Source: an uncultured Eubacteriales bacterium | GTDB taxonomy: Bacteria; Bacillota; Clostridia; Oscillospirales; Acutalibacteraceae | Length of the DNA stretch: 63,124 nt | Direction: 5' to 3' | Assembly: GCA_900315605.1 (NCBI GenBank) | Contig: OMZU01000027.1 | Span: 1 to 63,124, forward strand | Part shown: positions 12,527-50,877 of the stretch, piece by piece | Layout of the letters: every line of letters begins with the position of its first letter | How positions within the stretch are numbered: the first letter of the stretch is position 1 | Made by a program: the position numbers and the translations under genes | The notes under the pieces: generated by a model | Database searches by the model: none | What the model was told of the DNA's origin: nothing | The model's input: the letters and a program-made list of their open reading frames with translations, nothing else

Positions 12527-12800
12527 CAAAAAGCCCCTGCGCAAAATAACTGCGCAGGGACGAAAATTCCGCGGTACCACCCTGATTTTTGCCCAAAGGG
12601 GCAAACACTCTCTGCCGTAACGGAGCAACCGTCGAAGCCTAATGATCCTCTTGCACAAAAAACGTTCAGCCTCGCCGCTCGTGAGCGAACTTCACCAAAA
12701 TCCTCCGAAACTCGCTTTCAGCCGCGGCGAATCTCTCTGGGTCGGAAAACAAAGGCTACTCTCTCAGTCATAGCGTTTTGATATATTCTTTACTTCATAT
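12527..12800 (-). promoter_or_regulatory. T-box leader controlling pheST
   Basis: Read on minus, the canonical T-box sequence AGGGTGGTACCGCGG is at 12583-12569. An AGAGAGTA stem-I start lies near 12760. The Rho-independent terminator (12560-12527) is ccctgcgcag, a short loop, then gcgcaggggc and a T run. Uncharged tRNA-Phe should pair through its anticodon with the specifier codon and through its 3' end with the T-box. This favours the antiterminator and turns on pheST. A TTC at 12689-12687 (after GAAG) is my candidate phenylalanine specifier. Confidence 0.93.
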
Positions 12801-13571: not shown

Positions 13572-13713
13572 TTAATCAGGGAATTTCCTGACCACGCTGT
13601 TGTATGCGGTTGTTGTTCTCTGAGCGATTTTGATACTCCCTCCTGACTTTTGCTTTGAATATGAATTTTGGCGACAATCGGAACATATAATTTTTGACGC
13701 ACTTTTTATCGGC

Positions 13714-13878
13714 AAGAAAAAATGCGTGACCCAAATGAGCCACGCAGAAAAACACAGCTCATTTGTCGCCAAACAAAACTTTTCATTACAACTCATTGCA
13801 TATGAAAATTGAGCCTGTATTTTTACCCTAGTAAAAATATAAGCAACGAGTTGTAGAAATTTTAAGTTTTGTTTGGCA
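13714..13878 (-). ncRNA. Structured RNA candidate A (paralogue of 49608-49816)
   Basis: About 165 nt, read on minus. A 14-bp perfect closing stem (gccaaacaaaactt 13768-13781 with its complement 13864-13877) encloses a second stem (tacaactc...gagttgta) and an apical hairpin (tatttttac/gtaaaaata). The 3' side has a GGCGACAA segment, then a terminator (stem tgcgtg 13723-13728 and cacgca 13741-13746, U run). CAAAUGAGC (13765-13757) pairs perfectly with GCUCAUUUG in the terminator loop (13740-13732). That pairing could act as antiterminator or pseudoknot. The family is not recognised. A 6S RNA or a cis regulator are possibilities. No gene with a good start codon follows it. Confidence 0.7.
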
Positions 13879-13883
13879 TTTTA

Positions 13884-13912
13884 ATAATATCACAATTGAC
13901 TTCTGATTTCAA
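13884..13912 (-). promoter_or_regulatory. Promoter of structured RNA A
   Basis: On minus, TTGAAA (13912-13907), a 17-base spacer and TATTAT (13889-13884). The start falls a few bases before the closing stem, exactly as in copy B. Confidence 0.7.
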
Positions 13913-14070: not shown

Positions 14071-14234
14071 AGGCAATACCGCATAATTCTGATGCGCGGA
14101 TTGCGTAGTCAGATTTTTCGTCAGAATGTACAAATAATCAGTGTGCATACTGACGTATGGATACTAATTTTTGGGCAGTCTGACGGAATAATATGCAAGC
14201 AAGGCGTGCGCCATGAATTGTGCGGTGTTGCCTT
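14071..14234 (+). repeat. 165-bp palindromic-ended repeat, copy R3 (complete)
   Basis: From aggcaataccgcataattc to gaattgtgcggtgttgcctt. It is nearly identical to R2 through the core. It lies in the 3' region of pncB, 21 bases after the stop. Confidence 0.9.
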
Positions 14235-14255
14235 CATTCTCTGCCTTTTGGTTTA

Positions 14256-15698
14256 TTAAACTCCGTAAACGCTGAGCAAAATATTTTTGATCTCGTAGAG
14301 CTTCTTTGACAGGTCAACGTAATAGGTGTGCGGATTCTCGAATCTCTTTACCTCGTCCCAGAGCAGGTCGAGCTGAGCGGCGCAGTAGCCGGCGATTTCT
14401 TTGATAGAGGGCGATTCATACACACATTCGCCGCCCTTGAAAACAGGAACCAAAAGCTCCTTGGCGGTAAAATCGGTCAGGGTCTTGGTTTTCCAGGTCG
14501 CCATCGGGTCGAATATCGTTCTGGGCTTTTTGTCGTCAACGACTTCGTCATACACGCAAAGCTCGTCGGCGATCGCCTTTCCGCTCTCGTTGTCATAGTA
14601 GCGATAGAGCTTTTTGAAATGAGGATTGGTGATTTTTGCGGTGTTTTCGCTAACCTTGATCTTCGGCACGATCTCGCCGCCCTCGTCCTCAACGGCAACC
14701 AGCTTGTAGACTCCGCCGAACACCGGCGAACTGGACGAGGTGATCAGTCGCTCGCCCACGCCAAAGGTATCAACCTGCGCGCCCTGCATCATCAAATCGC
14801 GGATAAGGTATTCGTCAAGTGAGTTGGAGGCTGTGATGGTGCAATCGGTCAAGCCGGCTTCGTCGAGCATTTTTCGCGCCTTTTTGGACAGATAAGAGAT
14901 ATCGCCCGAATCAAGACGAATGGCGCATTTTGTCTTGCCCTGCGGCAAAAGCACCTCTTTGAAAACCTTTATTGCGTTTGGCACGCCGCTTTTGAGCGTA
15001 TTGTAGGTATCGACAAGCAGGGTCGGGTTGTCGGGATAAAGCTCGCAGTAGGTTTTAAATGCGTCGTACTCGCTGTCGAACATCTGGATCCAGGAATGAG
15101 CCATTGTTCCGCCTGCCGGAACTCCGTAGAGCTCGTCGGTCAGGGTGCAGGCTGTTCCTGCGCAGCCGCCGATATATGCAGCGCGCGCGCCGTCAACCGC
15201 TCCGCTGGCTCCCTGGGCGCGGCGTGAGCCGAATTCGAGCACTGCCCTGCCCTGAGCCGCTCTTACGATCCTATTTGCCTTGGTTGCGATCAGCGTCTGG
15301 TGATTGACAGTGAGCAGCACAAAGGTCTCTATCATCTGAGCTTCGATCGCCGGAGCCCGGACTGTCATAACCGGCTCGTTCGGGAACACCGGCGTGCCCT
15401 CGGGAACGGCGTAGATGTCGCCGTGAAATTTAAAATTGCTCAGATATTCCAAAAACTGCTCGTCAAAGATCCCCTTTGTGCGCAGGTAGCTGATGTCGTC
15501 ATCGCTGAAATGCAGGTTTTTGATGTAGCTTATCACCTGCTCAAGTCCGGCGGCAATGGCAAAGCCGCCGTTGTCGGGAACCTTGCGAAAAAACACGTCA
15601 AAATATACATTGCGCTTGTAAAAGCCGTTTTTAAAATATCCGTTTGACATTGTAAATTCATAAAAATCGCAAAGCATAGAAAGATTTTTCTCGTTCAT
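14256..15698 (-). CDS. pncB: Nicotinate phosphoribosyltransferase
   Basis: A 480-aa enzyme that converts nicotinate, PRPP and ATP to nicotinate mononucleotide, the entry step of NAD salvage. The N-terminus (LSMLCDFYEFTMSNGYFKNG) is typical of the long clostridial/Gram-positive form. EFGSRRAQGASGAVDGARAA and the PRPP-site region RLDSGDISYLSKKARKMLDE are visible, as is VGERLITSSSSPVFGGVYKL. The ribosome binding site is GGAGGC. It stands alone. The de novo gene nadA is at 49921, so the cell seems able to use both NAD routes, though nadB and nadC are not in the window. Confidence 0.97.
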   Translation of the reverse strand: MNEKNLSMLCDFYEFTMSNGYFKNGFYKRNVYFDVFFRKVPDNGGFAIAAGLEQVISYIKNLHFSDDDISYLRTKGIFDEQFLEYLSNFKFHGDIYAVPEGTPVFPNEPVMTVRAPAIEAQMIETFVLLTVNHQTLIATKANRIVRAAQGRAVLEFGSRRAQGASGAVDGARAAYIGGCAGTACTLTDELYGVPAGGTMAHSWIQMFDSEYDAFKTYCELYPDNPTLLVDTYNTLKSGVPNAIKVFKEVLLPQGKTKCAIRLDSGDISYLSKKARKMLDEAGLTDCTITASNSLDEYLIRDLMMQGAQVDTFGVGERLITSSSSPVFGGVYKLVAVEDEGGEIVPKIKVSENTAKITNPHFKKLYRYYDNESGKAIADELCVYDEVVDDKKPRTIFDPMATWKTKTLTDFTAKELLVPVFKGGECVYESPSIKEIAGYCAAQLDLLWDEVKRFENPHTYYVDLSKKLYEIKNILLSVYGV

Positions 15699-15747
15699 TT
15701 TGCGCCTCCAAAATCACATTCAGTTATAGAAATAGTAATAGTAATAC

Positions 15748-15878
15748 AGGCAACACCGCACAATTCATGCTGCACGCCTTGCTTGCATATTATTCCGTCA
15801 GACTGCCCAAAAATCAGTATCCATACGTCAGTATGCACACTGATTATTTGTACATTCTGACGAAAAATCTTATTGCCT
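15748..15878 (-). repeat. 165-bp repeat, copy R4 (internal deletion)
   Basis: Inverted relative to R2 and R3. Both outer ends are kept, but about 34 bases (the gactacgcaatccgcg-side arm) are missing near its 5' end, at 15871. It is directly joined to a hairpin repeat of family 2. Confidence 0.85.
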
Positions 15879-49607: not shown

Positions 49608-49816
49608 AAATAAAAATGGCGCACAACCAAAGCCGTGCGCCCAAAAACACCTGCTCTGATTGTCGCCAAACAATTAAAAGCTTATTCCGACAGCATAAAT
49701 ACTAATCAGGGATAGCAATTTAGAGCATAGTGTTTTTATCAATTTGATAAAAACACTATCCCCAAGAAACCAGCATTTATGCTTTTTAAAAAATATTTAG
49801 CTTTTAATTGTTGGCA
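49608..49816 (-). ncRNA. Structured RNA candidate B, possibly the leader of the DUF1273-like gene
   Basis: About 208 nt, read on minus. A closing stem of ~17 bp pairs 49665-49682 (gccaaacaattaaaagct) with 49799-49815. Inside are a second stem (gcataaat with atttatgc) and a 14-bp apical hairpin (49727-49740 with 49746-49759). GGGAUAG and CUAUCCC offer an alternative pairing. On the 3' side, GGCGACAA is followed by a terminator (stem 49618-49624 with 49635-49641, U run). ACAAUCAGAGC (49663-49653) can pair over 11 bases with the terminator loop (49633-49623). This matches copy A with different bases. Confidence 0.7.
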
Positions 49817-49821
49817 CTTTT

Positions 49822-49850
49822 ATGATATCACAAATCAATTATAAATTCAA
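49822..49850 (-). promoter_or_regulatory. Promoter of structured RNA B
   Basis: On minus, TTGAAT (49850-49845), a 17-base spacer and TATCAT (49827-49822), with the same ttgtgatat spacer end as copy A. Confidence 0.7.
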
Positions 49851-49920: not shown

Positions 49921-50877
49921 TTAAAGCATACCGAAGGATTTGTACATTTTGGTAATCAAAGAGGAAACCTTTTCGGCTGTTGCGGAATCCACCTTGACCT
50001 GCAATCTTGCGTCCTCGGAGGTGTTGCTGAAATCGCAGGCGTCGAGAACCTTGTCAAGTCTCATTACGTTGAAAACATTACATGAAATGTATGAGCTGAG
50101 ATGAACAAAGGTTTTCTCCGGGAACTCCTTGCACATGCGCAGATAGAAGTTCTTTTCTACGCCGAGGATAAAGGTCTGATTTGATGAGGTGCTGATGATC
50201 TCTCTCATTTTTCCTGTGCCTATGGCGTAATCAGCCTTTGCGGTGATCGCCTCGCAGCATTCGGGATGAACCATAACAATGCTGTCGGGATACTGCTCCT
50301 TGAGCTCCTTCAGGTCGTTTACCGACGCGCTGTTGTAAACATTACAGGTGGGCTGCTTGGGATAAACGATAACCTCTTTGTTCACCTTGCGCATTGCTTC
50401 CTGGGTGCAGTTGTACTCGCCGACATAAAGCACGCGGTCGCCCTCTACGCTGTTGATGACCTCCGGAACGTCTCCCGGAAAAGCAAGATAGTCGCCGATG
50501 AGCTTGAGGTTAAGAGGTGATGTGCCGTAGATTACCAGCGGAAGCTCAGGGTACTGATCTCTCCACTGCTTTACAGGCTCAAACTGGATCATGTTGTCCA
50601 TTGCAACCGGGCATGTTGAACCTCTGCCGGGTACAAAAACATTTTTGTCAGGCAGATAGGCAGCCGTAAGCTCCGCAAAAAATGTGGGAGCCAAAACAAG
50701 AATGTTCTTCTCTTTGCAGCCCTTTACAACGCTGGAAAAAAAGTCGCGGCTGTCTCCGAGAGTATCGGCAACCTCATGCGTCTCGGCAGGCGCATAGTGG
50801 TGAGCGATGATACAAATGTCGTTTTCCTTTTTTAATTCCTTGATTCTCTGAATTTGTTGGTTCATTTTTGATACCAT
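49921..50877 (-). CDS. nadA: Quinolinate synthase
   Basis: A 318-aa [4Fe-4S] enzyme that joins iminoaspartate and dihydroxyacetone phosphate. Conserved parts are CIIAHHYAPAETHEVADTLG and DSRDFFS, then FFAELTAAYLPD and MVHPECCEAI. Cysteines in GRGSTCPVAMDN, KQPTCNVYN and SSYISCNVFN fit the three cluster ligands. It is a diverged copy (VLAPTFFAE where FCGVxFMAE is common). nadB and nadC are not adjacent. The start is uncertain. MVSKMNQQ at 50877 has no clear ribosome binding site, and MNQQ at 50865 is possible. Confidence 0.93.
   Translation of the reverse strand: MVSKMNQQIQRIKELKKENDICIIAHHYAPAETHEVADTLGDSRDFFSSVVKGCKEKNILVLAPTFFAELTAAYLPDKNVFVPGRGSTCPVAMDNMIQFEPVKQWRDQYPELPLVIYGTSPLNLKLIGDYLAFPGDVPEVINSVEGDRVLYVGEYNCTQEAMRKVNKEVIVYPKQPTCNVYNSASVNDLKELKEQYPDSIVMVHPECCEAITAKADYAIGTGKMREIISTSSNQTFILGVEKNFYLRMCKEFPEKTFVHLSSYISCNVFNVMRLDKVLDACDFSNTSEDARLQVKVDSATAEKVSSLITKMYKSFGML

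Follow-up and report, generated by a model that had tools for sequence, protein, structure and literature searches.

Riboswitches for c-di-GMP (GEMM) occur in many copies per genome and in tandem arrangements, with surface-protein targets in Clostridia. T-box leaders are likewise present in many copies per genome, and 6S RNA (RF00013) is a free-standing, rod-shaped RNA closed by a single long stem. The RNAs described here, two of which lie in a 63,124-nt contig of an uncultured Eubacteriales bacterium (OMZU01000027.1; this whole stretch is hereafter the window), recall each of these in part: they share many copies, tandems and surface-protein targets with the c-di-GMP riboswitches, whose fold differs from theirs; they would share with T-box leaders a choice between terminator and antiterminator made by a leader RNA; and they are rod-like with a long closing stem, as 6S RNA is, but lack its large two-sided central bubble, occur in several to many copies per genome, and often end in a terminator directly upstream of a gene. 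They also resemble the transcriptional strand-exchange riboswitches (yxjA purine, ZTP/pfl and fluoride), which are reported to switch in a similar manner (PMC9756952, PMC10085676, PMC11077080). The common ground is a leader RNA with a pre-gene terminator, putatively mutually exclusive helices and a pseudoknot-like pairing of the tail; by contrast, our RNAs build the start of the transcript into the rod, and their apparent targets are mostly secreted proteins and not one pathway.

The sequence-only reading of the window had recognised no named class in either copy, and comparison with Rfam 15 bore this out: at the gathering threshold, no family covered the window copies, and no hit overlapped the RNA in 20 further loci, GEMM and 6S models included. 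The sole window hit of the T-box model (RF00230) is a separate element (12553-12780, minus strand, 118.5 bits) before a phenylalanyl-tRNA synthetase alpha-like gene (named by eye). With the threshold relaxed to E up to 10, scores stayed far under gathering, no 6S hit appeared, and the L20_leader and DUF3800-I alignments followed mainly the terminator; the best weak score on copy B, that of the L20 leader (RF00558; 21.7 bits vs. a gathering score of 58.7), came from an alignment spanning mainly its A/U stretch and terminator. We found no such RNA among open-licence papers, nor in the relevant passages of PMC8632094 and PMC2864571, a search that does not establish absence from print. The mechanism appears to be that of a leader attenuator, and the family, fold and regulon appear new.

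Two paralogous structured RNAs with a shared layout had been proposed for the window, and both are present on the minus strand, with homology limits at 13878-13717 (copy A) and 49816-49612 (copy B; Table 1). Each is preceded by the expected TTGAA(A/T)-17-TAT(T/C)AT, ending 5 nt before TGCCAA; these first bases open a stem that is closed by TTTGGC. Both copies have the closing stems and a terminator as well as GGCGACAA, GAGC and GTGTTTTT, and in both the terminator loop is complementary to the tail, over 9 bp in A and, counting wobbles, 11 pairs in B. Further predictions, that the kept pairing reflects covariation and that the two copies belong to a real RNA family, also held: the pairing persists above chance in a third copy (C) and in relatives elsewhere, and a covariance-model search found further homologues that conserve it. 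That reading had overlooked copy C and the genes downstream, as well as a second partner that the tail has within the rod.

Table 1. Copies A and B in the window: transcripts, parts, promoter-like sites and the gene behind copy B.
Feature	Position	Strand	Details
Copy A promoter-like site	13884..13912	-	-35 TTGAAA (13912-13907), 17-nt spacer, -10 TATTAT (13889-13884)
Copy A RNA	13717..13878	-	162 nt; 138.8 bits with the covariance model (A in seed)
A: P1 5' strand GCCAAACAAAACTT	13864..13877	-	Family P1: 97.3% of cells paired, 112 distinct copies
A: P4 5' strand	13831..13840	-	Partner is the A-rich core strand
A: core strand AAAAATACAGGCTCA	13810..13824	-	P4 3' strand and bulge GCTCA; alternative tail partner by covariation
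A: P1 3' strand	13768..13781	-	Ends TTTGGC
A: tail GACAAATGAGCTGTGTTTTT	13748..13767	-	Predicted partners: core GCTCA for TGAGC, or the terminator loop for CAAATGAGC
A: terminator, loop GCTCATTTG and T-tract	13717..13746	-	Family terminator stem: 98.3% of cells paired
Copy B promoter-like site	49822..49850	-	TTGAAT (49850-49845)-17-TATCAT (49827-49822)
Copy B RNA	49612..49816	-	205 nt; covariance model matches 49614-49802 with 57.3 bits; B outside seed
B: core strand AAAAACACTATGCTCT	49722..49737	-	Read in sequence
B: tail GACAATCAGAGCAGGTGTTTTTGG	49641..49664	-	Read in sequence; also read as GACAATCAGAGCAGGTGTTTTT
B: terminator GGGCGCAC/GTGCGCC	49612..49642	-	Loop complementary to tail; T-tract
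Gene behind B, 153 aa	49129..49590	-	Start codon 22 nt past the RNA's last base

The window genome holds three full copies, two in the window and copy C on contig C70 (genome G000), the latter found by scanning the genome for the 11-mer TTTGGCGACAA; a fourth place scored only 29 bits. A gapped pattern matched 13 places in 8 of 300 genomes of the same family, the window genome included, and the reversed pattern none. With a covariance model seeded on nine copies (A and C among them, B not), matches were found in 75 of 100 genomes of the genus (E up to 1e-3, a count to which antisense echoes of the rod may contribute), in 79 of the 245 genomes sampled from the order (49 of the 127 genera sampled; E 1e-5), and in 61 of the 245 sampled from the class (41 of the 158 genera sampled; E 1e-6). 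The last figure is about a quarter of the sampled class genomes, and no Rfam family covers the RNA. In the phylum sample of 249 genomes, the model matched only the window's own genome, which all four samples contain, and this single match serves as a control for the specificity of the model. One genome (G396) held at least 14 places with E below 1e-12. Antisense echoes of the rod, at 20-37 bits, were excluded. A stricter pattern found 101 stretches in named contigs, and 78 of the 80 compared also matched the covariance model (the exceptions being L091 and L128, the latter labelled Chitinophagaceae). The carriers are mostly rumen or gut assemblies named Ruminococcus, Clostridia, Oscillospiraceae or Monoglobus, with Lachnoclostridium sp. 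MSJ-17 (locus L095, by its name a cultured strain) and Ruminococcaceae bacterium P7 among those with strain names; judged by contig names, the class that carries the RNA is Clostridia. The two window RNAs are members of a large family in gut bacteria, whose copies look like leader RNAs of a switch.

Rare family-like stretches also occur in three viral-labelled contigs (L228 2113-2235, the phage record MT835845.1; L229; L230), perhaps carried there by prophages or perhaps because the contigs are bacterial and wrongly labelled. We rejected a mobile element: one copy compared with plasmids gave no match, its single match lay in an unannotated fecal phage record, and four patterns run over viral contigs found 0, 0, 1 and 1 contigs.

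The typical layout is a rod, then the tail (CAAUCGGAGC followed by UAUGUGUUUUU), then an intrinsic terminator, often a few nucleotides before the ribosome-binding site of the next gene. In an alignment of 112 distinct copies, each of the 44 pairs in the model had changed on both sides, and the modelled helices had 95.6% of cells paired (vs. 73.3% when shuffled and 38.8-45.0% when slid), values from an alignment that was fitted to the P1-P4 and terminator helices and favours them. These helices make up the modelled pairs; AAAAAUACAGGCUCU (the 3' side of P4 and its bulge) and the tail were not partnered in the model. A hexamer with 5 or 6 letters of TATAAT lies 5 nt before the first base in 131 of 164 distinct copies, compared with at most 18 at any other offset from 0 to 20; when a -35 box 17 nt upstream is added, 9 of 12 letters are matched in 94 of 164 at offset 5 and in at most 8 elsewhere, and with offsets of 4-6 and spacings of 16-18, 8 of 12 letters are matched in 142 of 164, vs. 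18 when the reverse complement is scanned. Within tandem arrays, most units carry their own promoter-like site (L053, L055, L064, L099, L140), and the first unit of L109 has a poor promoter score. The promoter, start, termination and read-through are predictions from sequence.

In 154 of 158 rods, the first internal loop is predicted to span 6 nt or more, and the loop beside P1 carries AATA on its 5' side in 85 of 158 and on its 3' side in 17 of 158. In the tail, the letters CAA are near-invariant (C in 112/112, A in 112/113, A in 106/112), and the antiterminator would pair them in only 74/111, 93/112 and 56/110 copies; the tail CAA and the internal-loop AATA are candidates for ligand or tertiary contacts.

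We assessed the partners of the tail by computing duplex energies between segments of one and the same copy and setting them against the energies obtained once partners had been permuted among copies, a test that depends little on the alignment and whose statistics keep the relatedness among copies, which the controls share. The tail paired better with its own core strand than with the cores of other copies (-14.96 vs. -13.5, z = -8.3; 104 of 113 copies), and its segment ACAA..GAGC paired better with its own terminator (-9.68 vs. -7.64 kcal/mol, z = -10.0, a value reached by none of 5000 permutations; 102 of 113 copies). Within the first partnership, the 3' strand of P4 covaried with the tail after GAGC (z = -6.35) and the bulge with GAGC (z = -6.57; both 102 of 113 copies); in the same first set, P4 itself gave z = -14.1 and tail with terminator z = -10.05, and the controls gave z = -0.3 (P4 5' strand with tail) and z = 0.1 (core with terminator). 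The order and class searches supplied a second set of 45 copies, 3 of them also in the first, and the 38 unshared copies used gave z = -7.5 for core with tail, z = -6.3 for the P4 3' strand with the tail after GAGC, z = -2.8 for bulge with GAGC and z = -6.5 for ACAA..GAGC with the terminator (-11.46 vs. -9.60); of the controls here, P4 5' strand with tail gave z = 0.8, and core with terminator, at z = -2.4, was not null. The tail after GAGC and the terminator showed no clear covariation in either set (z = +1.2 and -1.65).

Compensatory examples of core with tail include ACUCC/GGAGU (L212), GCUUC/GAAGC (L227) and ACUC/GAGU (L211), and column counts for GCUCU:GGAGC reached 96.6% vs. 95.3% shuffled (0 of 500 shuffles as high). 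For the antiterminator, column counts were modest (79.1% of cells paired vs. 77.4% shuffled), with 18 cells changed on both sides vs. 7.2 when shuffled; the UUCG loop could conserve part of this pairing for the stability of the terminator. Judged by covariation, then, the tail has two overlapping partners. One is a core strand of the rod (e.g. AAAAAUACAUGCUCU), which otherwise forms the 3' side of the P4 hairpin together with its bulge; the other is the terminator loop plus the uppermost part of the 3' arm. A triple helix of the U-tract of the tail with P4 was considered and set aside, since tail and core, of mixed sequence, vary as Watson-Crick partners, which favours a duplex.

Average predicted energies were -8.7 kcal/mol for P4, -15.3 for tail with core, -14.95 for the antiterminator and -13.7 for the terminator. 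The tail:core helix beat P4 in 145 of 147 copies and the terminator beat the antiterminator in 47 of 147; tail:core with terminator (the presumed off state) was lower than P4 with antiterminator in 129 of 147, by a mean of 5.4 kcal/mol (sd 5.1; 147 of 158 copies, before any pseudoknot cost). Such a balance is what a poised switch would need, and is not proof of one.

An attenuator of riboswitch type is our best reading of these features, and we consider it probable that the RNA acts in cis, as a leader choosing between the stop and the continuation of transcription into the next gene. An intrinsic terminator is readily read, its stem having 98.3% of cells paired in the 112 distinct copies, and a rival antiterminator is indicated by the covariation of tail and terminator in both sets (z = -10.0 and -6.5); their overlap and geometry suggest that the two are mutually exclusive. 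We propose that the tail would invade the rod, with GCUCU as a toehold, and displace P4, leaving the terminator free to form and the gene off; were P4 to stay closed, the tail would make the antiterminator and the gene would be on. The balance may be set by a small molecule or a protein binding the rod, the bulge and the near-invariant CAA. In this model, the tail:core helix would be a pseudoknot across P1 with a linker of ~6 nt, which would require the rod to bend at an internal loop, and the first internal loop could be the necessary hinge. Beyond this, we tentatively suggest, at somewhat less than even confidence, that these RNAs are orphan riboswitches, possibly sensing a global second messenger, and that they set which proteins a large part of the gut and rumen Clostridia secrete or display on their surface, by a three-way strand exchange in which the tail either invades its own aptamer or opens its own terminator. 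With two rival helices that both covary, the model lends itself to precise testing by mutation.

The surroundings of the copies bear on whether the RNA acts on its neighbour. With open reading frames called by our own script (not annotation), 128 of 164 distinct copies were followed by a frame on the same strand, 16 by another copy of the RNA on the same strand, 10 by a frame on the opposite strand and 10 by nothing, so the downstream neighbour was same-strand in 144 of the 154 copies having one; upstream neighbours were same-strand in 113, opposite in 46 and absent in 5. Of the 128 same-strand genes, 77 begin within 40 nt of the RNA, 41 lie 41-200 nt away and 10 lie farther than 200 nt. A start within 40 nt of the terminator leaves too little room for a further promoter, and these 77 copies therefore favour a cis switch; counting against a leader are the 10 of 154 copies with an opposite-strand gene next and the 51 of 128 same-strand genes more than 40 nt away. 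Copy B has a same-strand gene with no room for a promoter and copy A does not. The neighbours of copy A are pncB upstream on the same strand and two convergent genes (IreB and one more) behind, which places it among the 10 with an opposite-strand neighbour; lacking a close same-strand gene downstream, it would be a relic or a free small RNA.

Signal-peptide-like starts, called with our own simple heuristic and counted by copy, were present in 81 of 128 (63%) same-strand downstream proteins compared with 119 of 622 (19%) other nearby frames; by distinct protein, the first set gave 59 of 87. A Pfam comparison covered 81 of these 87 proteins, and the first 25 of the 47 families include LRR_5 (23), dockerin (11), CHAP (6), Big_2 (5), HTH_3 (4) and sigma-70 region 2 (2). 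From sequence, the regulon would consist mainly of secreted and surface proteins, and the RNA would then mark a shared control, seemingly not studied before, of the BspA-repeat, dockerin and CHAP proteins of gut bacteria. The 153-aa protein behind copy B is weakly YpsA/SLOG-like, matching Pfam YpsA with an E of 0.0089 and 16.5 bits, below the curated cut-off of 27.7, and has no NCBIfam match; if the proposed mechanism holds, copy B would control this YpsA-like gene. At two other loci (L058, L059), copies precede a frame starting MICCGFGHRN, which resembles the CCFFGHRD start of the protein behind B, and this gene type may thus be a recurrent target.

The sequence-only reading had left open a switch or a trans-acting RNA, and the context supports the former over the latter. 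That the terminated ~165-nt RNAs are trans-acting small RNAs with incidental neighbours would fit the promoter-like site and terminator that most units have of their own, and the lack of a close same-strand gene behind copy A; we nevertheless regard this as unlikely, given that the same-strand bias is greater downstream (144/154) than upstream (113/159), that 77 genes start within 40 nt, and that the tail favours its own core even inside one locus (in 16 loci with at least two copies, -15.0 on average with its own core vs. -13.2 with that of the neighbour). Less readily dismissed, though still rather improbable in our judgement, is the reading in which the attenuator responds to a protein that binds RNA, or to the polymerase itself, as in put-like or antiterminator-protein systems, and not to a small molecule. 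The letters of P1, the start at P1 and the distance to the promoter are conserved, perhaps beyond what pairing needs, and the downstream Pfam families have no common metabolic pathway, which speaks for such a system; the two-state tail, however, is equally expected of a ligand-gated expression platform.

The covariation of tail and terminator would also arise if the loop complementarity were a static pseudoknot that stabilises the 3' end and switches nothing. We think this improbable: the 9-bp loop helix of copy A would need to be crossed by ~3 nt, elsewhere the helix would run into the 3' arm of the terminator, and the same tail has a second covarying partner; we prefer to see an antiterminator in this pairing, and not a fixed contact of the loop. 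Least probable by far is ribosome-mediated attenuation, with GGAGCUAUG in the tail as the ribosome-binding site and start codon of a leader peptide. GGAG is present in 113 of 158 tails and ATG in 90 of 158, but neither is kept where the pairing is (ATGAGC in A, AGAGC in B, GAAGC in L227), and the spacing between the two is too short for initiation. Loss of GGAG in A, B and others with the pairing kept also led us to reject a CsrA-type GGA site or a Shine-Dalgarno sequence in the tail.

Genes of NAD synthesis lie just upstream of both window copies (pncB, 14256-15698, and nadA, 49921-50877, both minus strand), and the gene in front of copy C encodes an antiporter-like membrane protein (named by eye). 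We did not adopt an NAD-related switch, as pncB and nadA lie upstream of A and B and the downstream genes elsewhere are unrelated; the position of the window copies behind such genes is probably a coincidence. The gene pncB (nicotinate phosphoribosyltransferase) is itself flanked by a 128-nt inverted repeat (14111-14238 and 15743-15870) that is 96% complementary. Just past the 3' end of copy A, on the opposite strand, positions 13667-13681 (plus) match the family tail consensus exactly over 15 nt (TTTGGCGACAATCGG), with a local alignment score of 33, barely higher than the best (32) of ~200 random windows; this is perhaps the remnant of an inverted copy. Elsewhere, a skipping-rope RNA (RF02924, 51.1 bits; L018 634-729, minus strand) lies ~600 nt from a copy of the family.
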